Shown in pieces: positions 9,030 through 28,730 of a stretch of DNA of 35,850 nucleotides (position 1 is its first letter; each line of letters opens with the position of its first letter). This DNA comes from Saprospiraceae bacterium. Its GTDB lineage: Bacteria > Bacteroidota > Bacteroidia > Chitinophagales > Saprospiraceae. Made by a program: the position numbers and the translations under genes. Location of the stretch: the NCBI GenBank assembly GCA_025055285.1, contig JANWXM010000033.1:1-35850 (forward strand), given 5' to 3'. The notes beneath the pieces were generated by a model. The model saw nothing but the letters and a program-made list of their open reading frames with translations, was not told the origin of the DNA and did no database searches.

Positions 9030-9164
9030 CGACCATGAGTAGTTTGGTTCTGTTAGAGGCGCTGGAAACAATGCGCGAGAAGCGAGCAAGTAACCGACAA
9101 ATTGCTCCAACTTTCGTAAATTAGCGCATCTTACGCGCCTTTCATTCGAATGCACGTTTGTGCT

Positions 9165-9989
9165 ATGCCTCCTTGCAACATCACCGCTGTTCCTACGCAG
9201 ACGTTGACACCTGCTGGCACAGAAGCCCACACCGACAAACTTGTCGTAGAAGAGCCTCTTGAAATTCGCATTGCCTTTGGAAGTATTGCATACCGTCAAC
9301 AGATGTCATTAGCGGTGACCATGCGCACTCCGGGAGATGACGAAGACTTAGTCTTGGGCTTCCTATTCACGGAAGGCATCCTCCAGCGGGTAGACCAGGC
9401 TCGGGAGATTCGCGTGCTGACAGAGAATACATTAGTGGTAGAATTGGACCCTGCCCTTCCGGTAGACAAGCACCGACTTACGCGGCACTTGTTCACCTCT
9501 TCGAGTTGTGGAATATGTGGCAAGGCCTCATTGGATGCTGTACAGACAGTAAGCTGTTACTATCCTACGCGCGGTTATCCGCGGTGGAAACGCGAGTTGG
9601 TTTTTCAGCTACCCTCTCGGTTGCGCCTAGCACAAGCGGCTTTTGAGGCTACGGGCGGATTACATGCCACAGGGCTCTTTGATGAACAAGGATCGTTGGT
9701 CTTGATTCGAGAAGACGTAGGTCGCCACAATGCAGCAGACAAGGTCATTGGAGCGGCCCTTCGCAAAGGAGAGACCTTGCCCTTTCGACACTATCTTATG
9801 CTTGTTAGCGGCCGCGCCAGCTTTGAGTTGGTGCAGAAGGCGGCCATGGCCGGCCTTCCTTGCCTAGCTGCCGTGGGCGCACCTTCTCACTTGGCTGTGG
9901 AGATGGCTCAAGAGGCCGGCATAACACTCGTAGGATTTCTGCGCGGCGAACGCTTTAACGTCTACAGTTACCCTGAGCGGATCATCTGA
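9165..9989 (+). CDS. fdhD: Formate dehydrogenase accessory sulfurtransferase FdhD
   Basis: FdhD moves sulfur from the cysteine desulfurase IscS to the molybdenum cofactor, which activates formate dehydrogenase. The defining loop SSCGICGKASLDAV is present, with the sulfur-carrying cysteines at residues 115 and 118. Further conserved blocks are VVEEPLEIRI, DEDLVLGFLFTEG, IREDVGRHNAADKVIG, LVSGRASFELVQKA and GFLRGERFNVY. I chose the ATG at 9165 rather than the one at 9150 because the decayed second copy at 22.28-22.77 kb aligns from this methionine and not before it. Length is 275 residues, normal for the family. No formate dehydrogenase gene is in the window, so the client enzyme is encoded elsewhere. 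The lipoprotein gene follows after 63 bases, and this pairing recurs in the decayed copy. Confidence 0.95.
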   Translation: MPPCNITAVPTQTLTPAGTEAHTDKLVVEEPLEIRIAFGSIAYRQQMSLAVTMRTPGDDEDLVLGFLFTEGILQRVDQAREIRVLTENTLVVELDPALPVDKHRLTRHLFTSSSCGICGKASLDAVQTVSCYYPTRGYPRWKRELVFQLPSRLRLAQAAFEATGGLHATGLFDEQGSLVLIREDVGRHNAADKVIGAALRKGETLPFRHYLMLVSGRASFELVQKAAMAGLPCLAAVGAPSHLAVEMAQEAGITLVGFLRGERFNVYSYPERII

Positions 9990-10023
9990 CAGCCTCTTTA
10001 AACGGCAGCGCATTGCAACGTTC

Positions 10024-10031
10024 TATTTTTG
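10024..10031 (+). promoter_or_regulatory. Possible -7 promoter element ahead of the lipoprotein gene
   Basis: TATTTTTG matches TANNTTTG 21 bases before the ATG at 10053. No clear -33 TTTG is seen. If real, the lipoprotein gene could be transcribed independently of fdhD. Confidence 0.3.
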
Positions 10032-10052
10032 CCTTGCAAAACGGCTCTGCTC

Positions 10053-10943
10053 ATGAAAAAAGAGTTTCTCTGGGGCGCTGCACTGCTCCTGTGCGCAAAT
10101 GGTTGCGAGCCTCCGGTGCGTTTACGCGCAACGGAAAAAGGCGTTGAACGAGACTCCGTCCATTACGTGGGCATTGCCGAAAACAAGAACGATATTGACC
10201 TTCGAAAGGCTCAACTGCTTGGCACAGTTAAGATTGGAGATTATGGGTTGACCCTCGATTGTCACTACGCCGATGTGCTTGAGCGAGCTTGTCGCAATGC
10301 AGGCCGCATCGGGGGCAATTTGTTAGTCATCACTCGGCACCGGCGTTACCAGGTCAAATCCAACTGCCACACCGTCAAGGCGGAAATTTACAGCGTGCCT
10401 TCTTTGGAAGGTATGGAAAGCCGTATGTACTGGCACCCAGAGCGCCGTCTGCTGAAAGGCGATCTGCGAGCAAATCCTTTAGGTGCAGAGAAGCAACTCC
10501 CTGTTGTGCACACGCATCTAACTTGTCGGTTAGGCGGCGACTTTTTTCGCGAGGCATTCATACGCACGGAGACGCTCTTCTTTCCCGACAGCGCGGCCCG
10601 CCCCTCGGATGCACGCCTCGAAGCGCTTGCTTTGCGCCGCGCTCAGCTGCATTTCGACTTGACGGAGCTCTTCGCTCGCCAACTAAAGGCTGAACTGATG
10701 ACTTTTGCTCCCGACCTAAACCGCTTAGTTGGCGAGTATCGCGCTCGAACCCACGAGTGCGTGCGCCAACTCCGCGCCGAACAGGCCCATCTCGATGCAG
10801 CACTCGTCGCTAACCTCGCAGCGGCAGATTCCATCCTCACTAATTGGGAAAACATCGTTCGAAGGAGATTGCAAGAAACGGAGGCTTACTTCGGACAGCA
10901 GCGGATTGACCTGCGCAAGCGAAAGTCCTCGCCAAAATCGTAG
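10053..10943 (+). CDS. Lipoprotein of unknown function linked to fdhD
   Basis: The start at 10053 gives a short lipoprotein signal, MKKEFLWGAALLLCANGC, with the candidate lipid-bearing Cys at residue 18 followed by EPP. The decayed copy begins at the equivalent MTRKFLW, which supports this start. The first half has a block LRKAQLLGTVKIGDYG, then ADVLERACRNAGRIGGN and LLVITRHRR, reminiscent of small envelope lipoproteins with a heavy-metal-binding-like or RcsF-like fold (weak resemblance only). The last 90 residues are rich in Ala, Arg, Glu and Leu and likely form long helices, ending in the basic tail LRKRKSSPKS. Length is 296 residues. I do not recognise a characterised family. It follows fdhD at 63 bases, and the same order is kept in the inverted copy near 22 kb. 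Confidence 0.75.
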   Translation: MKKEFLWGAALLLCANGCEPPVRLRATEKGVERDSVHYVGIAENKNDIDLRKAQLLGTVKIGDYGLTLDCHYADVLERACRNAGRIGGNLLVITRHRRYQVKSNCHTVKAEIYSVPSLEGMESRMYWHPERRLLKGDLRANPLGAEKQLPVVHTHLTCRLGGDFFREAFIRTETLFFPDSAARPSDARLEALALRRAQLHFDLTELFARQLKAELMTFAPDLNRLVGEYRARTHECVRQLRAEQAHLDAALVANLAAADSILTNWENIVRRRLQETEAYFGQQRIDLRKRKSSPKS

Positions 10944-10975
10944 ACGTACAACGAGGTCTACTCTACCCGCTTTCT

Positions 10976-11356
10976 TTGAAATCACTCGTAAACCTAATAG
11001 ATGTGGAAGACTGGGAACTAGATTTTGAATGGCTACGGGTGCGCCATGAAGTAAAAGACGCAATGCGGCGCGATAGTTTGCCTGACCTAAATGCAATGCT
11101 GTTTCTGATCGGCATTCAGGAACTGGGCTGGTGGAAGAAAAACTTTACCAAAGAGGAGAAGCAAGACCTCATGCATATTGCCGTATGTCGTCTGTTGGCT
11201 TACGACGGCTATTACGAGTTTGTGGGCCGCGATGCCGACGGCTGGCCTCATTGGCGGCAAGTGCGCAGCATTCAGGTATTACCTCTACCTGAACAAGAGC
11301 GCCTGTTGAAGGAAAAAATTATCCAGTACTTTAAAGACCTAGAGGCCGAGAGATAA
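10976..11356 (+). CDS. Hypothetical cytoplasmic protein, 126 residues
   Basis: This is a small soluble protein without signal or membrane segments. It is rich in aromatic and charged residues (ELGWWKKNFTKEEKQD, LLAYDGYYEF, DGWPHW), which gives it the look of a genuine conserved protein. I do not recognise the family. The frame is open only from 10910, and no ATG lies in the N-terminal part: the choices are TTG at 10976 or GTG at 11003, and I kept the longer. It sits 32 bases behind the lipoprotein gene and 26 bases before the cyclophilin gene, so it is probably co-transcribed with both. No counterpart was seen beside the decayed copy of the fdhD-lipoprotein pair. Confidence 0.65.
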   Translation: MKSLVNLIDVEDWELDFEWLRVRHEVKDAMRRDSLPDLNAMLFLIGIQELGWWKKNFTKEEKQDLMHIAVCRLLAYDGYYEFVGRDADGWPHWRQVRSIQVLPLPEQERLLKEKIIQYFKDLEAER

Positions 11357-11382
11357 CGATACTCAAATGCTTATTTAACGCT

Positions 11383-12036
11383 ATGTCTAAGACGACGATG
11401 AGACCAATCCTTCTTCCTCTGATGTTGGCCTTTGTGGTAAGCACCTGCCAAAAACGCCAAACCATCGTGCGTATTGAGACGAACTTGGGCGTCATTCGCG
11501 TGCGGCTCTACGATGAAACACCGCTGCATCGCGATAACTTTTTAAAATTGGCTCAATCAGGGTTCTACGACAGTTTGCTATTTCACCGCGTTATCCGTGA
11601 TTTTGTCATTCAAGGTGGTGATCCGACTTCAAAGAATGCGCCCGCGGGGGTTGTTCTTGGCAGTGGTGATACGGGCTATACCATTCCAGCGGAAATACGC
11701 TTTCCTCATGTGCGTGGTGCCTTGGCTGCTGCGCGCAAACCTGATGCCGTTAATCCTCAACGTGCCTCTGATGGAAGTCAGTTTTACATCGTGCAAGGGC
11801 AACCTCAGACGGATGCCTCTCTAGATGAATGGGAGCGCGTACTGGGCATCAAGTTCAGCCCTCAGTGGCGCGCTCGTTACAAAGCATTGGGCGGAACGCC
11901 ACAGCTAGATGGCCAGTACACCGTTTTTGGAGAGGTCGTCTCTGGCCTCGAAGTTGTGGACCGCATTGCCGCCGTGCCACGCGACGCCCACGATAGACCG
12001 CTAGAAGACATCCGCATGTTCGTGCGCGTCGAGTAG
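11383..12036 (+). CDS. Peptidyl-prolyl cis-trans isomerase, cyclophilin type, exported
   Basis: The enzyme speeds proline isomerisation during folding of envelope proteins. The N-terminus (RPILLPLMLAFVVSTC) is a signal sequence ending in a Cys, so it may be a lipoprotein, although Thr just before the Cys is unusual for a lipobox. The cyclophilin core spans residues about 27-217, with the catalytic FHRVIRDFVIQGGDP block, the DGSQFYIVQG strand and the C-terminal YTVFGEVVSGLEVVDRIA. Between the last two there is an extra stretch of about 40 residues (roughly 145-185) that many Bacteroidota periplasmic cyclophilins share. It is the last gene of the 9.1-12.0 kb group; the sugar operon begins 105 bases later with its own promoter-like element. 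Confidence 0.93.
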   Translation: MSKTTMRPILLPLMLAFVVSTCQKRQTIVRIETNLGVIRVRLYDETPLHRDNFLKLAQSGFYDSLLFHRVIRDFVIQGGDPTSKNAPAGVVLGSGDTGYTIPAEIRFPHVRGALAAARKPDAVNPQRASDGSQFYIVQGQPQTDASLDEWERVLGIKFSPQWRARYKALGGTPQLDGQYTVFGEVVSGLEVVDRIAAVPRDAHDRPLEDIRMFVRVE

Positions 12037-12089
12037 CGCTGTACCCAATAACCACTTTCCTGCATCTTTCTTTGGAAAAACCTCTTCTA

Positions 12090-12101
12090 CGCCGCGCGGC
12101 G
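12090..12101. promoter_or_regulatory. 12-base perfect palindrome next to the sugar operon promoter
   Basis: CGCCGCGCGGCG is a perfect inverted repeat whose end lies six bases before the TACCTTTG element at 12108, inside the promoter spacer. Its position suits an operator for a dimeric regulator, but no regulator gene is nearby and chance GC palindromes occur. Confidence 0.3.
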
Positions 12102-12107
12102 ATATTC

Positions 12108-12115
12108 TACCTTTG
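12108..12115 (+). promoter_or_regulatory. -7 promoter element of the sugar operon
   Basis: TACCTTTG matches the Bacteroidota TANNTTTG consensus 26 bases before the ATG at 12142, so the leader would be about 20 bases. No good -33 TTTG is visible. The same octamer sits at a similar distance before the GT2 gene at 30129. Confidence 0.45.
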
Positions 12116-12141
12116 CCCGCATTTTCGTCAAGACAAAACTC

Positions 12142-13182
12142 ATGAGCAAAAGACAAAAGATTTTATTCCTGGTCGGCTCTTTTAACCAGACTACTCAAAT
12201 GCATCAAATAGCCAGCCACTTACAAGACGAATTTGAATGCTGGTTTACTCAGTTTTTTCCCGATTCTTTGCTGGAAAAGTGGGCGCTAAAGGCTGGTCTG
12301 CTGGAGAATACCATCATGGGCGAGAAATTTAAAAAGCGCGCCGACCATTATTTAAGCGAACATAATTTACCCATCGATTACATGGGTCAGCGCAATGAGT
12401 ACGATTTGGCTGTGCTATGTTCTGACCTAATTGTACCGCGTCGGTTGCAAGCCATAAAAACAGTGTGGGTGCAAGAGGGCATGACTGATCCCGTAAACTT
12501 TCTAACTCACGTAGTAAGGAAAGTGCGCGTGCTGCCGCGCTACTTGACCCTCAACACCTCGCTCAATGGCGCTTCGAATTTGTGTGATATTTACTGTGTG
12601 GCCTCGGAAGGCTACAAGGAACACTTTGCTTGCATGGGTACAGACCCAGATAAGATCGTGGTTACGGGCATGCCTAATTACGACAACCTCCATCGCCATT
12701 TGAATAACGACTTTCCCTACCGAGGCTATGTGTTAGTAGTAACTTCGGATATTCGCGAAACTTTTCGCTACGAGAATCGCCCAGCTTTTCTGCGCAAGTG
12801 TGTGCGCATTGCGGCAGGCAGGCCCATGATTTTTAAACTTCATCCTAACGAAAATGCTGAACGCGCTATACGCGAAATTCGAGAAGTCGTTGGCCCAGAT
12901 GCGCTTGTATTCACAGATGGCGACCCATATGCCATGATCGCCAATTGCGATGAGCTGATCTGCCAATATTCTACTTTGGTGTACGTTGGAATTATCCTGG
13001 GGAAAAAAGTGCATTCTTATTTTGATCTGGAGCACCTACGCCGTCTTGCACCGTGGCAAAACGGCGGCACTTCAGCTCGTCGCATTGCCGAGCTTTGTCG
13101 GCAGTATTTGGCTTTTCCCAAAAAGGATGGACCTGCTTTTTTGCGCAGTTTAGGAATTAATCAAACGCTTTCAGTCGCGTGA
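12142..13182 (+). CDS. GT-B-fold glycosyl/glycerophosphotransferase-like protein
   Basis: The 346-residue protein has the late-domain motifs of the CDP-glycerol glycerophosphotransferase, Kdo transferase and capsule transferase superfamily: VVTGMPNYDNL near residue 173, FKLHPNE near 232, and a C-terminal loop CQYSTLVYVGIILGKKV corresponding to the SS-x-x-E-A-x-x-x-GKP segment of GT-B donors. The N-terminal part starts with KILFLVGSFNQTTQMHQIA, a Rossmann-like first strand and loop. No membrane segment is seen. It is first in the long plus-strand operon and overlaps the next gene, a CMP-sugar synthetase, by four bases (GTGA). The context suggests it uses the activated sugar made by the operon, but a 2-epimerase or PseG-like hydrolase role cannot be excluded because those enzymes share the fold. 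Confidence 0.65.
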   Translation: MSKRQKILFLVGSFNQTTQMHQIASHLQDEFECWFTQFFPDSLLEKWALKAGLLENTIMGEKFKKRADHYLSEHNLPIDYMGQRNEYDLAVLCSDLIVPRRLQAIKTVWVQEGMTDPVNFLTHVVRKVRVLPRYLTLNTSLNGASNLCDIYCVASEGYKEHFACMGTDPDKIVVTGMPNYDNLHRHLNNDFPYRGYVLVVTSDIRETFRYENRPAFLRKCVRIAAGRPMIFKLHPNENAERAIREIREVVGPDALVFTDGDPYAMIANCDELICQYSTLVYVGIILGKKVHSYFDLEHLRRLAPWQNGGTSARRIAELCRQYLAFPKKDGPAFLRSLGINQTLSVA

Positions 13183-13973
13183 GTCGCATTGTTACTGTCG
13201 TTCAGGCTCGCATGGGTTCTACTCGCCTACCTGGGAAGGTAATGCTCGACCTGGTTGGCCAACCGCTGCTGCTGCGGATGATCGAGCGCGTACAGGCAGC
13301 GCAAAAAGTGGAAACTATCGTCGTAGCAACTACTGTAGAAGCATCCGATGATCCCATTGAAGCGCTTTGCATCCAGAATGGTTTGCGCTGTTACCGCGGC
13401 AGTGTGGAAGACCTTCTCGACCGCCATTATCAGGCAGGGCGGCTATGGAACGCCGACGCCGTTGCCAAAATACCATCCGATTGTCCTCTTATTGACCCAG
13501 CAGTAATCGACCGCGTCTTCGAATACTTTTTGCAAAACGACTACGACTACGTCAGTAATCTCCATCCCGCGACTTATCCTGATGGGAACGATGTAGAAGT
13601 GATGAAAATGAGCGCCTTAGAGGTTGCTTGGAAAGAAGCCCGGCGACCCTTCGAACGCGAACACACCACGCCATTTCTCTGGGAAAATCCAAACCGCTTT
13701 TCCATCGGCAACGTCCGGTGGGAAACAGGTTTAGATTATTCAATGACTCATCGCTGGACAATCGACTACCCAGAAGATTACGCCTTTATTCGAGCCGTTT
13801 ACGAGGAATTGTACCCTAAAAACCCGCGCTTTACGCTTCAAGACATTTTAGATTTGACAGAACGCCGACCTGATATCTTTGCCCTTAACTGCCGATATGC
13901 AGGCGTCAACTGGTATCGGCATCACTTGCATGAACTCAAAACCATCACTGCTGACCAAACTCGACACGTGTGA
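13179..13973 (+). CDS. SpsF-like cytidylyltransferase (CMP-sugar synthetase homologue)
   Basis: The protein belongs to the SpsF/NeuA/KdsB group of nucleotidyltransferases that activate acidic keto-sugars with CTP. The nucleotide-binding N-terminus VTVVQARMGSTRLPGKVM is diagnostic, followed by IVVATTVEASDDPIEALC, YRGSVEDLLDRHYQA and KIPSDCPLIDP, which carries the metal-binding Asp. Length is 264 residues, as for SpsF. The start is GTG, overlapping the previous gene's stop as GTGA, and its own stop overlaps the next GTG start in the same way, so translation of the three genes is probably coupled. In Bacillus sps and many glycan clusters SpsF homologues accompany a NeuB-like synthase (SpsE), as here. 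I infer activation of the operon's own alpha-keto acid sugar. Confidence 0.88.
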   Translation: MSRIVTVVQARMGSTRLPGKVMLDLVGQPLLLRMIERVQAAQKVETIVVATTVEASDDPIEALCIQNGLRCYRGSVEDLLDRHYQAGRLWNADAVAKIPSDCPLIDPAVIDRVFEYFLQNDYDYVSNLHPATYPDGNDVEVMKMSALEVAWKEARRPFEREHTTPFLWENPNRFSIGNVRWETGLDYSMTHRWTIDYPEDYAFIRAVYEELYPKNPRFTLQDILDLTERRPDIFALNCRYAGVNWYRHHLHELKTITADQTRHV

Positions 13974-14848
13974 CAACGGATAGCCTTTCTTTTTCTCCTG
14001 CTTCGCACGCTGACTTAGCTCAGTTGGCCCTGCGCGTGCGTGAACACATCCTGCGCATGTCTACCGACGGAGGCTGCTTCACAGGCGCCTCTCTATCGTG
14101 CGCCGATCTATTCGTCTTTCTCTATACGCGTTTTTTGCGGATTGGGCCTGACCGGCTTTCTGACCCAGAACGCGATTATTTGTTGCTCTCCAAGGGCCAT
14201 GACGTACCCGCCTTATATGCTACCCTGGCCGAACTGGGTTGGATACCTGTCGAACGATTAAAAAATCATCTGAAAACCAACGACTTTATCTACTGGCATC
14301 CCAATCGCCATTTGCCAGGTGTTGAGTTCCACTCTGGCTCTTTGGGCCACTTGCCCGCTGTCGGAGTGGGTATTGCACTCGATATCAAGTTGCGTTGCGG
14401 ACAAAACCGCGTAGTAGTAGTCACAGGCGATGGCGAGCTCGACGAAGGTTCGGTATGGGAAGCACTGCTCGTTGCCTCAGCCTATCGGCTAGATAACCTT
14501 GTTATTGTCGTAGATCGCAATCACTTTCAGGCAAATCTGCCCACAGAAGAGCTCATTCCATTAGAGCCATTGGCACCTAAGTTTGAAGCGTTTGGGTGCG
14601 CCGTCGAACGCATTAGTGGCCATGATTTTGCTCAAATGGAAGTGACATTTAGCCGCCTCCCCTTTCAAACGGGCAAACCTAGCGTCATTATCGCCGACAC
14701 TATACGAGGCAAAGGCGTGCCTAGCATTGAGGCACGCGCTGACCGCTGGTTCTGTAACTTCACGCACGAGGAGGTAGAAGCGCTACTGGGCGAACTACGT
14801 GGCGAAGCCCAAGCGCATCTAACCTCTGAAACCCTTACCGTCCGCTAA
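13970..14848 (+). CDS. Transketolase, N-terminal (thiamine diphosphate-binding) subunit
   Basis: This is one half of a split transketolase, which transfers two-carbon ketol units between sugar phosphates. The ThDP-binding motif is visible as GDGE beginning at residue 153 and closing at Asn184 in VIVVDRNHFQ. Other conserved blocks are LLSKGHDVPALYA, FHSGSLGHLPAVGVGIALDIKL and TIRGKGVPSIE. At 292 residues it matches stand-alone N-terminal subunits. The GTG start overlaps the spsF-like stop as GTGA, and the C-terminal partner begins 12 bases downstream. Since it is embedded between CMP-sugar synthetase and aminotransferase genes, I infer it makes or reshapes a sugar precursor for this operon rather than serving the pentose phosphate pathway. 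Confidence 0.92.
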   Translation: MTTDSLSFSPASHADLAQLALRVREHILRMSTDGGCFTGASLSCADLFVFLYTRFLRIGPDRLSDPERDYLLLSKGHDVPALYATLAELGWIPVERLKNHLKTNDFIYWHPNRHLPGVEFHSGSLGHLPAVGVGIALDIKLRCGQNRVVVVTGDGELDEGSVWEALLVASAYRLDNLVIVVDRNHFQANLPTEELIPLEPLAPKFEAFGCAVERISGHDFAQMEVTFSRLPFQTGKPSVIIADTIRGKGVPSIEARADRWFCNFTHEEVEALLGELRGEAQAHLTSETLTVR

Positions 14849-14860
14849 CTCGCTGCGCAC

Positions 14861-15760
14861 ATGAACTACCAGGAACTCATCCGCCAAATAGCGCTTAACG
14901 ACGAGCGCATTATTGTGATGACTGCCGAAAACCGCGCTGTGCTGCGCGAGTTACCACCCGTATTGGGCGAGCGTTTCATTGACGTAGGTATCGCTGAGCA
15001 AACAATGATTGGCGCTGCTGCGGGTCTAGCCCTGCGCGGCCGAATCCCTATTTGCCATGCCCTAGCGCCATTCCTCATCTATCGCGCCTATGAGTTCGTT
15101 CGTACCGATGTAGGCATTGCTCACCTACCAGTAAAATTGAGCAGCTGGATAGCTGGCTTCCTCTCCGAGGCAAATGGCCCTACCCATCAGGCGATTGAGG
15201 ACGTGGCGCTCATGCGCGCTATTCCGGGTATGACAGTTTTCTGCCCTGCCGATGAGGCCGATATGTTGGCCATGCTACCAGCCATTTGGGCTTCACCCGA
15301 CCCAGCCTACGTCCGCCTCATCGTGCGCAAAACGGACTACACTCATGCGCCTTTTGAAATTGGCAAAGCAGAAGTTATTAGGGAAGGATCTGATATTACA
15401 CTACTCGTCTATGGTTTACTGTTCGAGGAAGCTCGACAAACCGTTCCTTTACTTGAACAAGAGGGCCTTAGCGTAGGCCTTATCAACATGCGCTCGCTTA
15501 AGCCGGTAGACGAAGAGGCCATCGTACGCGCTGCTAAAACTTCAAAGCGACTTGTAACTATTGAAGACCATCTCCTTACGGGTGGTTTATACAGCATCGT
15601 AGCTGAGGTATTGCTCAAGCACGGACTGTCGGCCGAAGTACAACCCTTGGCTCTTGAGGAGCGCTGGTTCCACCCGGCACTTCTATCTGATGTGCTTGCT
15701 CATGAAGGCTTTACTGCAGAACAACTTGCTCGACGCATTACTCTACCCGGCTGGGTGTAG
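14861..15760 (+). CDS. Transketolase, C-terminal (pyrimidine-binding) subunit
   Basis: This is the second half of the split transketolase. The catalytic glutamate that activates the thiamine ring is Glu46 in FIDVGIAEQTMIGAAAGLA. It is followed by the HQAIEDVALMRAIPGMTVFCPAD segment and a C-terminal transketolase-type Rossmann domain with ITLLVYGLLFEEA, SVGLINMRSLKPVDEE and LVTIEDHLLTGGL. Length is 299 residues, normal for the C-terminal subunit. It must pair with the preceding gene product to form the active site at the dimer interface. The 12-base gap implies co-translation in matched amounts. A 1-deoxyxylulose-5-phosphate synthase-like reaction is an alternative within the superfamily, but the split form and short halves fit transketolase better. 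Confidence 0.92.
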   Translation: MNYQELIRQIALNDERIIVMTAENRAVLRELPPVLGERFIDVGIAEQTMIGAAAGLALRGRIPICHALAPFLIYRAYEFVRTDVGIAHLPVKLSSWIAGFLSEANGPTHQAIEDVALMRAIPGMTVFCPADEADMLAMLPAIWASPDPAYVRLIVRKTDYTHAPFEIGKAEVIREGSDITLLVYGLLFEEARQTVPLLEQEGLSVGLINMRSLKPVDEEAIVRAAKTSKRLVTIEDHLLTGGLYSIVAEVLLKHGLSAEVQPLALEERWFHPALLSDVLAHEGFTAEQLARRITLPGWV

Positions 15761-15815
15761 ACTTAATGATCTTCGTTAAAAAAGGTGAAGCTCGTTTGAC
15801 CTTAATCGTTCAACT

Positions 15816-17129
15816 ATGCCTAATACTGTATCGCTCAATGCAGATTATCCGCCAATTGCCAAATCGCTAGAAATTTTGGCAAAGGCCAGCCAGATCATGC
15901 ATCCTGTTACGCAGACGCTAGCCAAGGGCCCTGGCCAATGGAGCCGCGGCGTAGCGCCCGTCTACCTAGAACGCGGCAAAGGCTCGCACGTTTGGGATGT
16001 AGACGGCAACGAATACATTGACTACACAATGGGAGTAGGCCCTATCTCTCTGGGCTATTGCTACGACCGGGTAGACGCCGCGATACGCGAGCAGTTAGAA
16101 CGTGGCATTACTTTTTCGCTCATGCACCGCCTAGAGTATGAAGCAGCAGCGGCAGTGCAACAAGCTGTGCCCTACGCCGAAAGTGTTCGCATTTCCAAGA
16201 CGGGATGCGACGTTACCTCGGCTGCAGTGCGATTGGCTCGCGCCTATACGGGTCGCGATGCTGTGGTGTGCTGCGGATACCACGGCTGGCACGATTGGTA
16301 CATAGCCTCTACGCCGCGCAATGCAGGCATTCCGCAAGCAGTGCGGCAATTAACGCGCACTTTTTCGTACAACAACTTAGATTCTCTGCGCGCCGTGCTC
16401 GACAAGGACGTGGCCTGTGTCATCCTTGAGCCGGTAGTCTTCGAGGCTCCGCGCGACAACTTTCTGCACGAAGTAGCTCGTTTGACCCGCGAGAATGGCT
16501 CGTTGCTCATTTTCGACGAAATGTGGACAGGCTTCCGCCTAGCGATAGGCGGTGCTCAAGAGTACTTCGGCATCCAGGCCGACCTAGCGTGCTTCTCTAA
16601 AGCTGTGGCCAATGGCATGCCCATTTCCTTCCTTACTGGGCGCAAAGACATTATTAGTCAGGGCGAACGCGATGTGTTCATTTTTACTACTTTCGGCGGC
16701 GAAGCACTTTCTTTAGCGGCAACTCTCGCCACCATTGCCGAAATCCGCGAGAAGAATGTACCCGCCTATCTAGCCAAGCAGGGAAAAAAGCTCAAGGAGG
16801 GCTATAATGCTCTCGCTGCTCGATTTGGCTTGCAAGACGTCACTCAATGCAGTGGTTTCGACTGCCGCACGGTGATTAATTTCACAGGTCAAGGTGGAGA
16901 TCCGCTCGTCCTCAAGACTCTTATGCAACAAGAAATGCTCAAGCGCGGTGTGCTGTGGGGTGGCTTTCACAATTTATCCTTTAGCCATACCGACGCTGAC
17001 ATAGCCTATACGCTCCAAGCCTACGAAGATGCCTTTCCAGTGCTTAAGCGCGCTATTGAAAGCGGAAAACCAGAAACCTTTTTGCGCGGCGAGGTTTTGG
17101 AAATGGTTTTCCGAAAGACAAAATACTGA
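15816..17129 (+). CDS. Class-III aminotransferase, glutamate-1-semialdehyde aminomutase-like
   Basis: This is a pyridoxal-phosphate enzyme of fold type I, class III. The N-terminal block VYLERGKGSHVWDVDGNEYIDY is typical of the class. The cofactor-binding lysine is K262 in ACFSKAVANGMPISFLTG, the Asp that holds the pyridine ring is in LLIFDEMWTGFR, and the phosphate is held by SKTGCDVTSAAVRLARA. The sequence is closest in character to GSA aminomutase relatives found in surface-sugar clusters, not to heme-pathway HemL, given the operon and the lack of HemL-like flanks. I infer it adds an amino group to a keto sugar or sugar acid in this pathway; the carbon position is unknown. Length is 437 residues. 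It lies 55 bases after the transketolase C subunit. Confidence 0.87.
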   Translation: MPNTVSLNADYPPIAKSLEILAKASQIMHPVTQTLAKGPGQWSRGVAPVYLERGKGSHVWDVDGNEYIDYTMGVGPISLGYCYDRVDAAIREQLERGITFSLMHRLEYEAAAAVQQAVPYAESVRISKTGCDVTSAAVRLARAYTGRDAVVCCGYHGWHDWYIASTPRNAGIPQAVRQLTRTFSYNNLDSLRAVLDKDVACVILEPVVFEAPRDNFLHEVARLTRENGSLLIFDEMWTGFRLAIGGAQEYFGIQADLACFSKAVANGMPISFLTGRKDIISQGERDVFIFTTFGGEALSLAATLATIAEIREKNVPAYLAKQGKKLKEGYNALAARFGLQDVTQCSGFDCRTVINFTGQGGDPLVLKTLMQQEMLKRGVLWGGFHNLSFSHTDADIAYTLQAYEDAFPVLKRAIESGKPETFLRGEVLEMVFRKTKY

Positions 17130-17195
17130 TCCGCAGGCACATGTAAAGCGAAAGTGGAGTGCCGCAGCACTCCACCATCCATAATTCGCCTAGCT

Positions 17196-17999
17196 ATGAA
17201 CCTCTTCTCCTTAAAAGGTAAAACCGCTCTAGTCACGGGTGCGTGCGGCCTATTGGGTCGCGAGCACTGCTATGCTCTGGCAGAGGCGGGTGCATCAGTC
17301 GTAGCCCTAGACATAGACGAAACAGCCTGCCGAGCATTGGCGGCCCAAATGGGCCAGCAGCACTTAGGGCTCAGGGCAGATGTTACCGACCGCTCCTCCC
17401 TTGAACACGTTCGCGATGTCGTTCTAGAGCGCTACGGCTCTATAGATATCCTCGTCAATAACGCTGCTATAAACGACATGTTCGAGAGTCCTGCCTTAGC
17501 CGCTCAACAATCTATGTTTGAACACTATCCTTTAGACATGTGGCGCAAGTCGTTGGAAGTCAATGTTACAGGAGTATTCCTCTGCTCGCAGGTATTCGGC
17601 ACTGTTATGGCCCAGCAGGGGCGCGGCAGCATCATCAACATCGCTTCTACTTACGGAATGGTTGGGCCCGACCAGAGCATCTACCAGAACGAACGCGGAG
17701 AACAGACGTTTTACAAATCACCTGCCTACCCGACGACAAAAGGTGCTATCATCAACTTTACGCGCTACTTGGCCGCGTATTGGGGCCGAAAAGGCGTGCG
17801 GGTAAACACCTTATCGCCTGGCGGCGTCGAAAACAATCAAGAACCCTTTTTCATTCAAAATTACAGCCGCAAGACAGCTTTGGGCCGTATGGCTAAGCCG
17901 TCGGACTATCGCGGTGCGATTGTTTTCTTGGCCAGTGACGCTTCGGCTTATATGACGGGCGCAAACCTAGTCGTAGACGGCGGCTGGACCGCCATATAA
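17196..17999 (+). CDS. Short-chain dehydrogenase/reductase
   Basis: This is an NAD(P)-dependent oxidoreductase of the classical SDR family. The cofactor motif TGACGLLG is at residues 14-21, NNAA follows in LVNNAAIND, the catalytic serine is S151 in NIASTYG, and the YxxxK pair is Y178 and K182 in AYPTTKG. The C-terminus MTGANLVVDGGWT is typical. I chose the ATG at 17196 because it places the first beta strand at the expected distance; an upstream ATG at 17154 would add 14 unrelated residues. Length is 267 residues. In this operon it probably oxidises a hydroxyl to supply a ketone for the neighbouring aminotransferase, or reduces a keto intermediate. The direction cannot be told from sequence. 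Confidence 0.92.
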   Translation: MNLFSLKGKTALVTGACGLLGREHCYALAEAGASVVALDIDETACRALAAQMGQQHLGLRADVTDRSSLEHVRDVVLERYGSIDILVNNAAINDMFESPALAAQQSMFEHYPLDMWRKSLEVNVTGVFLCSQVFGTVMAQQGRGSIINIASTYGMVGPDQSIYQNERGEQTFYKSPAYPTTKGAIINFTRYLAAYWGRKGVRVNTLSPGGVENNQEPFFIQNYSRKTALGRMAKPSDYRGAIVFLASDASAYMTGANLVVDGGWTAI

Positions 18000-18015
18000 C
18001 TTCTTCTTCTAATGT

Positions 18016-18534
18016 ATGGCACTCGATCACGACGCGCTTGTTCAAAAAGCTAAGCAAATACGCCTGCTGCTGACTGACTGCGACGGCGTGCTAACGGATG
18101 GAGGCGTCTATTACTCTGCGCAAGGAGAACAACTGAAGCGATTTTCCATACGCGATGGCATGGGTGTAGAGCGTTTGCGCAAACTTTGCGCCATAGATAC
18201 GGGTATTGTTACAGGCGAGCACTCGCCTATTGTGGCGCGGCGAGCGGAAAAACTTCAGATGACCCATCTTTATCTAGGCGTGAAGGATAAAGGCGCCTGC
18301 TTGCGCGATATTTTGGCCAAACACCATCTAAAGCGCGAGGAAATCGCCTTTATCGGCGATGATGTAAACGACCTGGAGGTCCTTCAATTCGTTGGCCTTA
18401 GCGCTTGCCCAGCCGATGCTTTGCCGCCAGTTAAGGCAATTGTGCACTATGTTTGCACGCAACTTGGAGGGCATGGTGCTTTTCGTGAATTCGCAGAATG
18501 GATCATTCAACTGAGGAGGACAAGCGCCTCATAA
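18016..18534 (+). CDS. KdsC-like HAD-family sugar acid phosphatase
   Basis: The 172-residue protein has the compact, cap-less HAD fold of KdsC, the Kdo-8-phosphate phosphatase. The nucleophile loop is LTDCDGVLTDGG with D21 and D23, the second motif is GIVTGE, the lysine is in LGVKDKGACL, and motif IV is FIGDDVNDLEVL. Homologues remove phosphate from Kdo-8-P or Kdn-9-P, or occur fused to or beside CMP-sugar synthetases. Its position 88 bases before the NeuB-like synthase argues that the synthase releases a phosphorylated keto acid that this enzyme then dephosphorylates. A housekeeping Kdo function is possible, but KdsA and KdsB are not here. The 16-base gap to the SDR gene supports one transcript. 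Confidence 0.9.
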   Translation: MALDHDALVQKAKQIRLLLTDCDGVLTDGGVYYSAQGEQLKRFSIRDGMGVERLRKLCAIDTGIVTGEHSPIVARRAEKLQMTHLYLGVKDKGACLRDILAKHHLKREEIAFIGDDVNDLEVLQFVGLSACPADALPPVKAIVHYVCTQLGGHGAFREFAEWIIQLRRTSAS

Positions 18535-18622
18535 CGATAGAACCACGCTTTAGGCTTCTTCTTGGCCATTGACGCTCATCGTTAGTACTCGCCTTTAAAT
18601 CAAGGACTTAAATTACACACAC

Positions 18623-19501
18623 ATGAACATTATCGAACTACCTAACGGACGAAAAATAGGCCCTGGCCAGCCATGTTTTCTAATTGCAGAAATTGGCATT
18701 AACCACAATGGGTCTTTGGAGCTGGCCTTGCGCCTCATCGAGGAGGCGGTCAAGGCCGGTTTCGATGCCGTCAAATTTCAAAAGCGCACGCCTGAATTGT
18801 GTACGCCACCCGACCAATGGGATATCATGCGCGAAACGCCCTGGGGGCGTATGCGATACATCGATTATCGCCACAAGGTGGAACTGGGGCAAGCGGAATA
18901 CGCGGCGATTGACCGTTTTGCCCGCCAACACAACATTATTTGGTTTGCCTCTTGCTGGGACGAACCGTCGGTGGATTTTATTGAGCAGTTCGACGTGCCT
19001 CTCTACAAGGTAGCTTCAGCTTCGCTGACAGATATTAATCTGCTCAAAAGGAAAAGGGCCACAGGTAAACCACTTATTCTTTCCACGGGTATGTCTACCA
19101 TGGAGGAGATTGAAGCAGCTGTAGAAGTAGTGGGCACCGACAACTTACTCATCGCCCACGCTACGTCGGCATACCCATGCGCGGTACACGAGCTGAACTT
19201 GCGTATGATCCAAACCCTTCAGCAGCGCTATCCTGAGGTCCCTATTGGCTACTCGGGCCACGAGACCGGGCTGGCACCTACGCTAGCAGCTGTGGCCTTG
19301 GGCGCTCGTTTCATCGAGCGCCATATTACCCTAGACCGCGCCATGTGGGGTTCCGACCAAGCCGCTTCTGTCGAGCCGGTTGGGATGGCAAAATTAGTGC
19401 GCGATATTCGCGATATTGAAGCCGCTCTGGGCGATGGTATTAAACGCGTCTACGAAAGTGAAATGAGTCAGCGCCAGAAGCTGCGCCGCGTAAAAAGTTA
19501 A
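18623..19501 (+). CDS. NeuB-family sugar acid synthase without SAF domain
   Basis: The product condenses phosphoenolpyruvate with an aldose to form a 3-deoxy-2-keto acid sugar. The NeuB barrel is clear: FLIAEIGINHNGSLELA, AGFDAVKFQKRTPE, LYKVASASLTDINLL, LILSTGMSTMEEIEAAV, HATSAYPC, IGYSGHETGL and FIERHITLDRAMWGSDQAAS. It ends at residue 292, right after the SEMSQRQKLRRVKS segment where NeuB, PseI and LegI continue into a C-terminal antifreeze-like SAF domain that closes the partner subunit's active site. That domain is absent, and the 48 bases before the next gene leave no room for it. A stop that falls cleanly after the barrel suggests a natural short form, not a broken gene. Substrate unknown; a phosphorylated aldose is plausible given the KdsC-like neighbour. 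Confidence 0.88.
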   Translation: MNIIELPNGRKIGPGQPCFLIAEIGINHNGSLELALRLIEEAVKAGFDAVKFQKRTPELCTPPDQWDIMRETPWGRMRYIDYRHKVELGQAEYAAIDRFARQHNIIWFASCWDEPSVDFIEQFDVPLYKVASASLTDINLLKRKRATGKPLILSTGMSTMEEIEAAVEVVGTDNLLIAHATSAYPCAVHELNLRMIQTLQQRYPEVPIGYSGHETGLAPTLAAVALGARFIERHITLDRAMWGSDQAASVEPVGMAKLVRDIRDIEAALGDGIKRVYESEMSQRQKLRRVKS

Positions 19502-19549
19502 TTCACCACCGCATCCCCGCAAGGTTCCGCTTTCAAATGGTAAGAAGCC

Positions 19550-20500
19550 ATGAGCCTGCTGACGATTACAACGAGCATTCTACTGGTCTGGATGCTGATC
19601 ATTATTGCCTTGGAGCGACGCTATCCCTACACAGCTGGCCTAAAACTTTTCCGCGAAGGATGGTGGCTCGACCTAGTATGGTATACGCTCATTCAGAGCT
19701 ATTTTCTGAAGATTCTCATTTTCGACTACATTATCCAACCGGCCGAATCCGCTTTGGGCCTATCGAAAGAAGGCTATTTGTCGCACTGGCCCCTTTGGGC
19801 GCTGGTTTTGTTTTTCTTGATTACGCATGACTTTTACATTTACTGGTTCCACCGCTGGCAACACCACAATAAAATTTTGTGGCGCACGCACGAGGCGCAT
19901 CACTCGGTTAAAACGGTGGATTGGCTGGCTGGCTCGCGTTCTCATGCCCTGGAAATCCTCATCAACCAAACCATCGAATTTGCACCTATTGTCTTTCTTC
20001 TCGATGAAAAGACGGCAGCGGTCGTCGTGCCTATTAAGGCACTCATCGATGCGATGTGGGGGATGTGGATTCACTCCAACATCGACGTTAAGATGGGCAA
20101 ACTCCAGTACTTTATCAACGGCCCGCAAATGCACCAGTGGCACCATGCTAACCACCGCGAAGTCTTCTACGCCAATTATGCTACCAAATTCGCTTTCTTC
20201 GACTGGATATTTGGCACTGGCTTCCTGCCTGGCTTAAAGCCCTTGAAATACGCTATTCTAAAGCCGCGCGAATATGGCCTGCCCTACGACTATCCGCGCG
20301 ATTACTTCCTGCAACATTGGTTTTCCTTCTGGCGCTTCGATGTAAAAAAAGTGGAAAACCTCCCTTGGCTGAAACCCTATCTAGAATGGCAGCAAACACT
20401 CTTGCGCTGGATGGGTCTCGTCCGCCCGCTGAAGAAAGCACTTACTACTGAACCGCCCTCTCTCAACACAACTACTCAAATGCCTCCTACTCACTCATGA
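19550..20500 (+). CDS. Sterol desaturase/fatty acid hydroxylase family membrane protein
   Basis: This is a diiron membrane oxygenase family member of 316 residues. The histidine clusters that hold the two irons are present: H93 to H106 in HDFYIYWFHRWQHH, H114-H118 in THEAHHS, and H195-H199 in MHQWHH followed by NHR. About four hydrophobic segments surround them. Members hydroxylate or desaturate lipids, carotenoids or sphingolipids; this sequence alone does not settle the substrate. It begins 48 bases after the NeuB-like gene and overlaps the SMR gene by four bases (ATGA). It could modify a lipid that carries the operon's glycan, or simply sit at the tail of the transcript. Confidence 0.87.
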   Translation: MSLLTITTSILLVWMLIIIALERRYPYTAGLKLFREGWWLDLVWYTLIQSYFLKILIFDYIIQPAESALGLSKEGYLSHWPLWALVLFFLITHDFYIYWFHRWQHHNKILWRTHEAHHSVKTVDWLAGSRSHALEILINQTIEFAPIVFLLDEKTAAVVVPIKALIDAMWGMWIHSNIDVKMGKLQYFINGPQMHQWHHANHREVFYANYATKFAFFDWIFGTGFLPGLKPLKYAILKPREYGLPYDYPRDYFLQHWFSFWRFDVKKVENLPWLKPYLEWQQTLLRWMGLVRPLKKALTTEPPSLNTTTQMPPTHS

Positions 20501-20874
20501 GTCCCTGGACATCTCTTGTGATCGCCTCCGCTATGGAGATCTGCTGGATCTATAGCCTCAAGTGGCTCGATTTCAAACGAATTGCTGCCTTCGGTTTTCC
20601 ACGCCTTTTCTTAGAGTGGGAGGGCTGGCTGGCTCTGATGCCACTCTTAGGATACGTCGCATTCGGGCTAGCCAACATCTACTTCTTTTCCATCGCCATG
20701 AAGGGCATTTCGCCTTCAACGGCCTTCGCCGTCTGGATGGGTTTAGCTCTGATAGGGACAAAACTGGTCGGCATCGCCTTCTTCAGAGAAGATTGGAATT
20801 GGACGCAAGTACTGTTCATCGCCCTCATCCTCATTGGTGCAGTGGGCTTAAAAAGCGAGGAAAAGGGAAGTTAG
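20497..20874 (+). CDS. Small multidrug resistance (SMR)-family transporter
   Basis: This small inner-membrane protein has four hydrophobic helices. The conserved glutamate of the SMR family is present in the first helix (SAMEICWIYSLK, Glu14), and the last half has GISPSTAFAVWMGLALIGT and a final helix ending ILIGAVGLK. The spacing fits the SugE/Gdx-type branch, some members of which export guanidinium, while others move quaternary amines or, in remote cases, lipid-linked sugars. At 125 residues it is about 15-20 longer than usual because of an insert after helix 1. Its ATG overlaps the stop of the hydroxylase gene. It is the last gene of the operon. Confidence 0.83.
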   Translation: MSPWTSLVIASAMEICWIYSLKWLDFKRIAAFGFPRLFLEWEGWLALMPLLGYVAFGLANIYFFSIAMKGISPSTAFAVWMGLALIGTKLVGIAFFREDWNWTQVLFIALILIGAVGLKSEEKGS

Positions 20875-21060
20875 CCGCAAAGCGCAAGAGCAGTGCTATC
20901 GGTAAGAGATCTGAGTAGCCTCTCCGACGTTGGCTAAGAAAAAGTATTCGAGCCCACTAAAGAGTTGAACGACGCAGAGCAGGGATTAGGGGGCATCTTG
21001 CACCACATTAATACACAACGCGCGCTAAAGCCCTTCTGTAGAGCGCTCAATTGGATTGTT

Positions 21061-21265
21061 GGCCGGTAAAGACCGGTTGCCGATCTCCGACTTCCAATGC
21101 ACGCCCTTTCCAGTCCGTTCCCCCTGATGAATCAGGCGGTTACAGGAGGTTTAACGTGCCTGTCACAACAGCGGGATACTCCCCGAGGGAAACAGCGTTT
21201 CGACTCGCTCGTGTAAGGTCAGTTGTAAAGCGGCATCTTATTGCAATAAAACTGTCGCTTTTTTT
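21061..21265 (+). ncRNA. Candidate second structured non-coding RNA
   Basis: The stretch 20875-21472 has no credible protein gene. From 21061 it shows serial hairpins: GGCCGGT/ACCGGTT (21061-21078), CCTGA-TGAA-TCAGG (21123-21136), ACAGG/CCTGT (21142-21163), a CGAG/CTCG hairpin with an inner AAAC/GTTT stem (21184-21207), then a rho-independent terminator. Two blocks, CCAGTCCGTT (21110-21119) and GTCGCTTTTT (from 21254), also occur in the same order and at nearly the same distance in the candidate RNA at 5.27-5.50 kb. No promoter element was recognised, and no known RNA family was matched by eye. It could instead be a long 3' trailer of the sugar operon. Nothing was seen in 20875-21060 or 21266-21472. 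Confidence 0.27.
21227..21265 (+). terminator. Rho-independent terminator
   Basis: A 9-bp stem with one G-U pair (21227-21235 against 21253-21261) ends in seven T residues. It is the first strong plus-strand terminator after the sugar operon, 350 bases beyond the SMR gene, so it may end that transcript or a separate RNA. Confidence 0.65.
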
Positions 21266-21472
21266 GTCAAAAAAGGGCGACTTAAACACCCTGGCCCGCC
21301 CGTGTCATCTGTGGACGGCGTTTTCTTTTCAGCTTTAATCTCCATTTAAAAAAAGGACACTGACTAAAAGATTGAGGAATCATTTCAAAAATAAACGCCT
21401 TCTGGGTATTAGAGGCTCTAGCTACGCCTGCTGTTGCGCGGTTTGGGAAAGAGCCGACATTGGATTGCATTT

Positions 21473-22238
21473 TTATTGCGCGCGTTTTCGCTTGCGCAGA
21501 TCCACCCGTTGCTGTCCGGCATAGGCCTCCGTCTCTTTCAGGGATTTCTATACCTTATCTTCCCAGCGGCCCAGCACGGCCTCAGCGTCGGTTATTGATG
21601 GAAAGTTCAGCATTGAAGGCTGTCTGGTCAGCGCGCAGTTGGCGCACATGCTTTTCGATGCAGGCGCAATATTCGCTGACTAGAAGATCGAGGCTTGAGC
21701 CGATAGATGCTGTCTGGAGAAAAGCGTCCCGATGCGAATAGAGGCCTCGCGCAGGAAGTCGCCGCCAAGTCGGCAGGTTAGGCGCGTGTGCATGGGCAGC
21801 AGCCCGATAGCGCCTTTTGGGAGCGTACTGTGCAGGTCGCTTTTGCGGAGCGGCGCTCCGGACGTTGGTACACGCAGCTTTCCACGCCCTCTGAAAAGGA
21901 GATAAGTAAATCTCGGCTTTCAGAACACAACGATTGGACTTCACCGGATTTCGGCGGTGTTGCATAAAGACTGGCAAATTGCCGCTAGTGCGGCCGGCGT
22001 TTCAGCGGGCTACGCTCCAGCGCATCGGCGCGATAGCGGTCGAGCGTGGCGCTGCGGTCGCCAATTTTGACCGTGCCCAGCAGCTGCGCTTTTCGCAGGT
22101 CGATATCGCTTTTGCAATACCGACGTAATGCCCTGAGTCGCGCGGAGTGTTTTTGTCTGCGACGCGCAGGCACGTGGGCGGCTCGCAGCTGTACAAAGCG
22201 GAAAGCAAGAGGACGGCCCACAGGAATTTTCGAGTCAT
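21473..22238 (-). pseudogene. Decayed copy of the fdhD-linked lipoprotein gene
   Basis: Read on the minus strand this matches the lipoprotein at 10053-10943 from start to stop but in broken frames. It begins with MTRKFLWAVLLL and a SCEPP lipobox (ATG at 22238), then HYVGIAK, then after a frame change DIDLRKAQLLGTVKIGD, later VKSN and LKAEIY, then HVRQLRADQ, and finally ETEAYAGQQRVDLRKRKRAQ with a stop at 21473-21475. An in-frame TAG interrupts the segment GRWEDKV just before this end. The copy is 766 bases against 891 for the intact gene, so about 125 bases are lost. The residues differ at many sites and the DNA is richer in G+C, so it is a divergent relative, not a recent duplicate. It lies 43 bases beyond the fdhD remnant in the same order as the intact pair. 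Confidence 0.85.
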
Positions 22239-22281
22239 GAGCGGGCGTTGTAAGAGCAAAAGTGGGGCGGCGCGTCAGCCG

Positions 22282-22773
22282 TTAGAGAATGCGCTGCGGG
22301 TGGCTGTACGCCTTAAAACACCCGCCGCGCAAGAAGCCGACGAGCATCATGCCCGCTCTCTGGGCTATTTCAATCGCCAGACGCGAGGGCGCGCTTACGG
22401 CGGTAAGGAAAAGGTATCCGGTATATAGCAGCTTTTTGCGCTAACTCGAAGCCTGCATGCCCACCGACGAACAGCAGATAATGGCGCAGCGGCAATGCCT
22501 CGCCTTAGCGCAAGGCAGCGCTAATGACCTTATCCATAGCGTCGTAGCGCCCAATGTCCTCGCGCAGTAGCACCAGTCGGCCTTCCGCATCGAAAGGTGC
22601 CGATGGGTACGGGCCCTTCGTCACCTCAAAAGTCGCCTGCGCCCGCCGAAGGGCACGCGGCGCTACCGTATTCCATGCGAATTTCCAGCGACTCTTCCAC
22701 GACACATATGGGTGTCCGTACGCTCTGGCGTCAGGGTGCGCATTTGAACGGCGGTGGTGATAGGTAGAGGCAT
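22282..22773 (-). pseudogene. Decayed, internally deleted copy of fdhD
   Basis: The minus strand from the ATG at 22773 reads MPLPITTAVQMRTLTPERTD, aligning with the start of the intact FdhD. It then gives VVEESLEIRMEYGSAA in a second frame and jumps directly to LRRAQATFEVTKG. About 330 bases (intact residues roughly 43-150) are missing, including the loop with both sulfur-carrying cysteines. The rest matches closely: LREDIGRYDAMDKVISAALR, then an in-frame TAA, then GEALPLRHYLL, GFELAQKAA, LAIEIAQRAGMMLVGFLRGG and a stop at 22282-22284. It cannot make working FdhD. Its direction is opposite to the intact gene. Confidence 0.88.
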
Positions 22774-22858
22774 GAGGAAATGAAAAGATGAAAAATTTGG
22801 CTTGCGTAAATGGGCCTGAACCGTACTATAGCTGTTCAAGGGCGCGACTTTTGTGTAG

Positions 22859-22872
22859 TTTTTGATCAAAAA
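22859..22872. repeat. 14-base AT-rich perfect palindrome
   Basis: TTTTTGATCAAAAA lies between the fdhD remnant and the TTG start of the glycosyltransferase at 22887. It could be a regulatory site for either direction or a chance palindrome. It falls close to where the G+C content of coding sequence rises. Confidence 0.3.
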
Positions 22873-22886
22873 AAAGACTTTTCGGT

Positions 22887-25273: not shown

Positions 25274-25368
25274 GTAACAAAAAATTTAGGCACTGGGGTG
25301 CCGCGCAACGCGCAGCGAATAGCAGGCAACCGACAACCAAACCTTGGAAAGGGCCGTGCCGCTGATAA

Positions 25369-25635: not shown

Positions 25636-25905
25636 AACTACTGTTTACGATTTAGTGAATAAATACCTCGGCATTGGTCAGACCGTACAACTCCTTCAAA
25701 AGGAGCCACAAGCGGATTAGCGGAAATCGACGGCTAATGTAAGAGGGATTTCCTGTTGGGAAAAAATTTTAGGGGAAAAATATTTTGTCTTTTGGACTAT
25801 TTAATCACCCTTTACTTTACTCGGCCCTTGTGTTCGGCATCTACATAAACGACCATACTCAAGCCTGCCGCGATGCAATAACGATGGTTTTTCGATAAAA
25901 ATAGA

Positions 25906-25964
25906 AACCGCAGAGGGCGCCGAGGGCGCGGAGGTATTCTTCTTTGCGTCTCTACTCTTCGGTT
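25906..25964. repeat. Short inverted-repeat element of the CGCAGAGG type
   Basis: The gap 25636-26016 holds no gene. Within it, AACCGCAGAG at 25906-25915 and CTCTTCGGTT at 25955-25964 form imperfect inverted ends (9 of 10 match). They flank purine-rich GGGCGCCGAGGGCGCGGAGG and TTCTTTGCGTCTC. This layout resembles the short CGCAGAGGCGCAGAG-type elements scattered through many environmental bacterial genomes. Only one copy is present in the window. Confidence 0.4.
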
Positions 25965-28705: not shown

Positions 28706-28730
28706 GTGGATATCGGGCATGTAGAGGGCC

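Follow-up and report, generated by a model that had tools for sequence, protein, structure and literature searches.

In nab clusters a synthase of the NeuB, PseI or LegI kind is paired with a CMP-transferase, and condensation with phosphoenolpyruvate (PEP) by a NeuB-family enzyme is followed by activation with cytidine monophosphate (CMP); in one Vibrio cluster, according to the accessible part of the source, an SpsF-like domain may replace NeuA (PMC7371886). Here we describe a locus with the same two predicted steps in a Saprospiraceae bacterium (Bacteroidota). The window, an entire contig (JANWXM010000033.1) of 35,850 bases from a 3.6-Mb genome, carries ten consecutive plus-strand genes, termed A to J. 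Unlike the nab clusters, this cluster adds a KdsC-type phosphatase (G), a transketolase (C and D) and a hydroxylase (I), and its synthase (H) has no SAF domain and other residues at the C2 site. The set of eight to ten genes, clustered or co-inherited over many families, looks like one undescribed pathway. Our tentative reading, which we consider quite possible, is that it makes a CMP-activated amino-3-deoxy-2-ulosonic acid and attaches this product to a membrane lipid. We found no description of this gene combination in the literature searched, which covers few subscription journals, and the pathway, which is widespread and of the ulosonic acid type, has apparently not been described before.

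The aminoshikimate route to 3-amino-5-hydroxybenzoic acid (AHBA) of rifamycin likewise brings together a dehydrogenase, an aminotransferase, a phosphatase, a transketolase and a PEP-condensing synthase. By analogy, it offers a precedent for a transketolase that feeds a PEP-condensing step: the transketolase cuts aminofructose 6-phosphate to iminoerythrose 4-phosphate, the substrate that RifH then joins to PEP. E. coli with rifF, H, K, L, M and N formed AHBA, and the available portion of the paper names no rif transketolase gene for that strain (PMC8788734). The AHBA-route product is aromatised, whereas the product proposed here would be CMP-activated. RifH is of the 3-deoxy-D-arabino-heptulosonate 7-phosphate (DAHP) synthase type, and RifK belongs to another aminotransferase family than E. 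A dehydrogenase and an aminotransferase likewise work together to aminate an ulosonic acid in the synthesis of 8-amino-3-deoxy-D-manno-octulosonic acid (Kdo8N) by KdnA and KdnB of Shewanella; that route differs in that KdnB is an iron alcohol dehydrogenase, KdnA is of another aminotransferase family, and neither a transketolase nor a NeuB-type enzyme is known to take part. Rif15, like C/D, is a two-subunit transketolase outside central metabolism, and the part of the source at hand describes it as grafting a C2 unit onto rifamycin S (PMC6002545); C/D differs from it in being dispensable and exchangeable. Finally, aminolipid synthesis by OlsF and OlsE touches the present system in that OlsF adjoins the cluster in some genomes and I falls in the OlsE superfamily. 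Unlike OlsE, I scores far below the OlsE equivalog cut-off (86.5 bits against 475), and 34 of the 53 genomes with the cluster (defined below) have no detected OlsB-type domain.

Gene content and predicted enzymes

Protein families were assigned with Pfam and NCBIfam models and their cut-offs. The original prediction had described eight plus-strand genes (A to H) at 12142–19501, with intergenic gaps of −4 to 88 bases, as a NeuB-like synthase, a KdsC-type phosphatase of the haloacid dehalogenase (HAD) class, an SpsF protein, a split transketolase, an aminotransferase of the glutamate-1-semialdehyde (GSA) type and a short-chain dehydrogenase/reductase (SDR). The open reading frames bear out this arrangement and the models support these families, but the unit does not end at H: it continues to 20874 with I and J. 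The gap between H and I is 48 bases, and A/B, B/C and I/J overlap by 4 bases. Scans for promoters and terminators gave counts near chance (5 against 7.9 ± 2.7, and 15 against 10.8 ± 3.8, respectively).

H (18623–19501, +; 292 amino acids) is a NeuB-type PEP-condensing synthase for which PF03102 is the sole Pfam match (E 3.5e-78), with no C-terminal SAF domain; this domain is likewise absent from PDB entry 6ncs, of the Leptospira type and 290 residues long. The residues that correspond to the PEP site of NeuB (E23, K51, Q53, K129, S132, H213, E232 and H234) are invariant in 24 homologues. H scores below the equivalog cut-offs of both NeuB (253.9 of 399.65) and PseI (213.7 of 340.25). According to the accessible part of the source, the site that reads C2 of the acceptor is Gly in synthases for neuraminic (Neu) and legionaminic (Leg) acid and Phe in those for pseudaminic acid (Pse), while position 184 is Asn or Tyr in Neu, Tyr in Leg and Ser in Pse enzymes (PMC7371886). 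Where H has Ala133, the alignment places Gly in nmNeuB and Phe in PseI (8h2c), and Ser182 falls on Asn184; the C2 site, which follows a conserved Ser, is numbered 132 in that source and 133 in our alignment. Both residues are invariant in the 24 homologues, and the pair matches none of Neu, Leg and Pse: Ser182 by itself fits Pse, while neither the Gly of Neu nor the Phe of Pse is found at the C2 site. The residue pair and the missing SAF domain suggest that the acceptor is not one of the usual 2-acetamido sugars.

G (18016–18534, +) exceeds the cut-off of the KdsC-type model TIGR01670 (151.1 bits against 106.95) and stays below two narrower models, PRK09484 for KdsC (156.5 of 208) and that for KDN-9-phosphatase, the enzyme of the Kdn pathway of B. 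thetaiotaomicron (166 of 180); D21, D23, K92, D115 and D116 are conserved in 81 sequences. These scores bear on whether one of the known pathways (those to Kdn, Neu, Pse, Leg or Kdo) could operate here in variant form, with recruited helper enzymes. Such a variant would fit the approach of G to the KDN-9-phosphatase cut-off, its place in the KdsC subfamily and the intact PEP site of H. It fits poorly with the scores of H below the NeuB and PseI cut-offs and with a pair unlike both Gly with Asn/Tyr (Neu/Leg) and Phe with Ser (Pse), and WaaA is already present in the cluster genomes. To our knowledge, moreover, neither Kdn nor Kdo synthesis needs an aminotransferase or a transketolase. In line with the original prediction, the ten proteins include no known supplier set for nonulosonic acids (NulOs) or Kdo: no NeuC, PseB/C/G/H or Leg genes were found among them. 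We regard a known pathway in variant form as improbable. A product serving as a substitute for Kdo was considered and ruled out, all 53 cluster genomes carrying WaaA.

B (13179–13973, +) is an SpsF-type cytidylyltransferase (PF02348, CTP_transf_3, E 1.9e-32) with motif residues conserved among homologues. Its nearest PDB entry is the cytidylyltransferase 6oew (3.3e-40), followed by CMP-Kdo synthetases, and it falls short of the KdsB equivalog (39.3 bits, cut-off 155.2). E (15816–17129, +; PF00202, Aminotran_3) is a class III, GSA-type aminotransferase in which K262 and D234 are invariant in 16 sequences, and which lies below the aminomutase cut-offs (HemL 240.7 of 527.3; PRK06209 402 of 486). 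F (17154–17999, +; PF13561/PF00106) is an SDR dehydrogenase whose Gly motif and residues Ser165, Tyr192 and Lys196 are conserved across 118 sequences; judged from the sequence, an ATG at about 17196 is a likelier start than the GTG at 17154. A (12142–13182, +) has the GT-B fold and probably transfers the CMP-activated sugar acid. Its match to Epimerase_2 is below threshold (Pfam 23.7 bits, cut-off 30.6), and UDP-GlcNAc 2-epimerase motifs are absent from it; the GT-B fold is common to A and the epimerase. I (19550–20500, +; PF04116, E 3.1e-27) belongs to the FA_hydroxylase family, whose function as membrane di-iron enzymes we assume for it, and J (20497–20874, +; PF00893, E 5.4e-13) is a small membrane protein of the SMR/EamA type, possibly a flippase or exporter.

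The genes form the coherent set that the original prediction had seen, with predicted enzymes for condensation with PEP, dephosphorylation, activation with CMP, transketolase chemistry, amination and redox. We infer the substrates and the order of steps, as that prediction did, from the predicted activities. C/D would trim or reshape a sugar phosphate, F would create a keto or aldehyde group and E would exchange that group for an amino group; H would condense the resulting aldose phosphate with PEP, G would dephosphorylate the product and B would activate it with cytidine triphosphate. A would then transfer the sugar to a lipid, I would use oxygen to oxidise the lipid part or the glycolipid, and J, where present, may aid movement of the product across the membrane. 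Amination might precede condensation, as in aminoDAHP, or follow it, as in Kdo8N.

Conservation of the gene set and co-inheritance of the hydroxylase

Our searches covered one phylum, the 80 best genome-contig loci, and plasmid and viral collections. For an even draw, 395 genomes of the same phylum were queried with E at E ≤ 1e-60. The 78 that matched split into a group of 53 with at least 54% identity (the host genome included) and one of 25 with at most 39%; all 52 other loci of the first group were fetched, together with six of the 25 as controls. Among the 52, A and B were each present in 46, C and D in 37, E in 52, F in 44, G in 35, H in 45, I in 38 and J in 6. A, B, E, F and H were clustered in 44 loci from 13 families, or in 45 if L152 is counted, where E and F appear as one frame of 940 amino acids. 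The join in that frame crosses a long run of unknown bases; it is therefore no evidence of a fusion, and F was left untallied there. None of the six control loci contained the cluster, and one (L172) had weak matches to H and B, at 39% or less. The second, named set comprised the best 80 of 532 relatives, of which the 49 loci of at least 21 kb were counted: A, E, F and H were present in every one, B and I each in 48, C and D each in 47, J in 41 and G in 32. The occurrence of J thus differs strongly between the two samples (41 of 49 against 6 of 52). Among the hosts of the named set are many species of Hymenobacter, as well as Chitinophaga, Puia, Arcicella, Ignavibacterium, Kapaibacterium and Saprospiraceae, and among the matches listed the loci nearest to E of the window come from metagenome-assembled Saprospiraceae genomes (84–94% identity). 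Gene order is conserved far beyond chance, and is constant in the 49 named loci and in the majority of the 52 from the even draw.

A tree of E, built with a quick method and SH-aLRT support only, mostly tracks the genome families, and the pathway therefore seems mostly inherited within families. The genes oftenest missing from the 44 clusters were C/D (13) and G (10, within the cluster), with I missing locally from 7; C/D and G may be the ones oftenest lost from otherwise complete clusters because their steps may suit housekeeping enzymes, which would stand in for them. The six genomes of the f29 group have the set broken up. C-D lies no more than about 6 kb from E in four of them and on a different contig in two (G125 and G133), and in G133 both parts are near contig ends, so that an assembly break is possible. 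G-H-I is grouped away from E in G288, G079 and G133, I adjoins H in G137, and in G390 and G125 H stands alone within the fetched stretch, with I on a separate contig. In a further genome, G005, A-B-C-D-E is separated from F-G-H-I. The closeness of C, D and E in the split genomes G288, G079, G137, G390 and G005 mildly favours amination beside the transketolase step, before condensation.

Hydroxylase I is inherited with aminotransferase E even when the two lie apart. Among the 395 genomes, 53 have clear orthologues of I (at least 49% identity; the next three matches are at 33–37%), and 49 genomes carry both E and I, four E alone (G322, G333, G345 and G389), four I alone (G128, G237, G272 and G338) and 338 neither (Fisher p 6.5e-53, a value overstated by the non-independence of related genomes). 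In 10 of the 49, I falls beyond the stretch fetched around E; it shares the contig of E in G087, G016, G137 and G005 and lies on another contig in the rest. The histidine cluster of I is conserved in 55 sequences, on the strength of which I should be an active membrane di-iron enzyme.

A Methylomagnum plasmid carries A-B-C-D-E-F-H-G, and after these come LplT and a pair resembling OlsB/OlsA that scores below its cut-offs. In the viral collection no cluster was found near the best 80 of 243 relatives of H (59% identity or less), whose neighbours included B in 16 loci, F in 4, G in 2 and C in 1. NeuB-type synthases are common on these IMG/VR contigs (L198–L277; 44–59% identity to H), an SpsF-like gene lying nearby in 16 of 80 loci, and contig L198 has a NeuB-type gene (59%) about 3 kb from a homologue of the transketolase N-terminal subunit (36%).

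The split transketolase

C (13970–14848, +; PF00456, Transketolase_N) corresponds to the N-terminal subunit, which binds thiamine diphosphate (ThDP), and its GDG...N motif is at least 97% conserved across 99 sequences. D (14861–15760, +; PF02779 and PF02780, Transket_pyr and Transketolase_C) corresponds to the C-terminal subunit; Glu46 of its GIAEQ motif, which we take to be catalytic, is conserved in 102 sequences, and its nearest PDB entry is the split transketolase 6yaj (1.4e-46). With both subunits, the ThDP motif and the glutamate in place, C and D are predicted to act as a two-subunit transketolase.

Orthologues of C at 60% identity or more were found in 38 of 365 genomes, all 38 of them E-positive. 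They form a pathway group set apart from all other matches, which reach 44% at most; other split transketolases are common, with 35 further matches in frames of 276–347 amino acids at 37–44% identity to C. On the other hand, 13 of the 44 clusters lack the pair, and in these genomes no orthologue was found elsewhere (search at E ≤ 1e-20; matches at 40% or less). The clusters without the pair are scattered over the E tree, where the loss takes six changes; well supported branches make at least four of these unavoidable. Exactly between B and E in G389 (L164), in the position of C/D, sits a single-chain transketolase of 654 amino acids. The link that the original prediction drew between pathway and pair therefore holds in one direction, C occurring in E-positive genomes only, and the transketolase pair is not essential to the cluster. 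Of the two weaknesses which that prediction had foreseen, absence of the pair from related clusters is found in part; the pair is not the sole transketolase of its genome, since a separate frame of 674 amino acids elsewhere in the host also matches transketolase.

The C/D step is thus probably a transketolase step open to a less specialised enzyme; otherwise, genomes lacking C/D would make a different product. The pattern of loss and exchange favours ordinary sugar-phosphate chemistry. It weighs against the idea that C/D acts as Rif15 does and grafts a two-carbon ketol unit on an unusual acceptor, yielding a branched or extended sugar or lipid, with no supply of aldose phosphate; a changed product in the C/D-less genomes would equally explain the pattern. 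Rif15 itself, in the part of its description available, is a two-subunit enzyme with such a use (PMC6002545), and the separateness of the C group would suit such a role here. We nonetheless consider a Rif15-like role improbable.

The acceptor and the surroundings of the cluster

For our preferred reading, transfer of the ulosonic acid to a membrane lipid, the neighbours of the cluster are informative. OlsF-like genes adjoin it in 6 of the 52 even-draw loci, though not in the window. The NCBIfam cut-off of 620 for OlsF is exceeded by the gene after I in L073 (721) and by one in L163 (737). An OlsB/OlsA-like pair adjoins the cluster in 2 of the 52 loci, and in Methylomagnum LplT and such a pair come after it. 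The original prediction expected a surface glycan, but the target is no less likely to be a lipid, because aminolipid acyltransferases adjoin several clusters and the co-inherited I is of a lipid-acting family. Other neighbours recur as well: a membrane protein in four loci, the one tested matching LPG_synthase_TM, and a calcineurin-like phosphoesterase near the cluster in 12 of the 52 loci, from three families (L121, L124, L127, L141 and eight others). The NCBIfam model closest to the phosphoesterase of L073 is one for an anti-phage enzyme of this kind, with a score well short of the cut-off (74.7 of 420).

Several observations pull the other way. The OlsB-type domain is not enriched in genomes with the cluster (19 of 53 against 152 of 342 others, p 0.30), and the host has a single such domain, in a frame of 557 amino acids on a different contig; the aminolipid link is consequently one of adjacency, since no link through presence in the genome was seen. 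WaaA is found in all 53 cluster genomes against 233 of the 342 others (p 1e-8), genes of the heptosyltransferase type (GT9) lie upstream in L121, L135, L139 and L153 of the f35 group and in L073, and the window itself has glycosyltransferase and ManC-type genes from 22.9 kb, 2 kb past J. These findings would suit the same chemistry with a new ulosonic acid bound to the lipopolysaccharide core, O-antigen, capsule or a glycoprotein in place of a free membrane lipid, as would the GT-B fold of A and the occurrence of NulOs on cell surfaces, noted in the accessible part of the source (PMC7371886). The link with WaaA may, though, reflect ancestry only; eight glycosyltransferase and ManC probes, covering part of such families, found homologues in 5 of the 52 fetched loci and none in the other 47; and lipid acyltransferases among the recurrent neighbours, together with the co-inherited I of a lipid-acting family, favour a lipid. 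We hold a glycan-bound product to be somewhat unlikely. That the clusters lie outside all polysaccharide loci does not hold, given the GT9 genes in five loci, a GT4 gene in L133 at a distance of about 5.5 kb beyond I, and the glycosyltransferases of the window.

Other features of the window stand apart from the cluster. A Cas6-family protein is encoded at 27736–28533 (−; PF01881, E 3.3e-16), and no repeat array was found among direct repeats of at least 24 nucleotides in positions 9000–29000. A lipoprotein-like gene at 10029–10943 (+) has no Pfam match, and the frame at 21582–21977 (−) resembles part of it by eye and is possibly a decayed copy. The gene at 45–929 (+) encodes a class I methyltransferase (Pfam Methyltransf_31), which we presume to resemble the ArsM arsenite methyltransferases.

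In its widest form, the proposal is of a membrane lipid class not known before, with an amino-ulosonic acid head group delivered from CMP, built through a transketolase/NeuB route and completed by an O2-dependent hydroxylase, present in many families of one phylum and, lacking the hydroxylase, in at least one gammaproteobacterium; stated so broadly, we think it unlikely. If it were true, environmental bacteria (Hymenobacter, Chitinophagaceae, Ignavibacteria, Thermochlorobacteriaceae) would carry ulosonic acids as the head groups of lipids, and the route would join central-carbon transketolase chemistry to sialic acid chemistry. Descriptions of such bacteria list unidentified aminolipids and glycolipids; the cluster would open some of these to genetic study and provide a marker for them in metagenomes.

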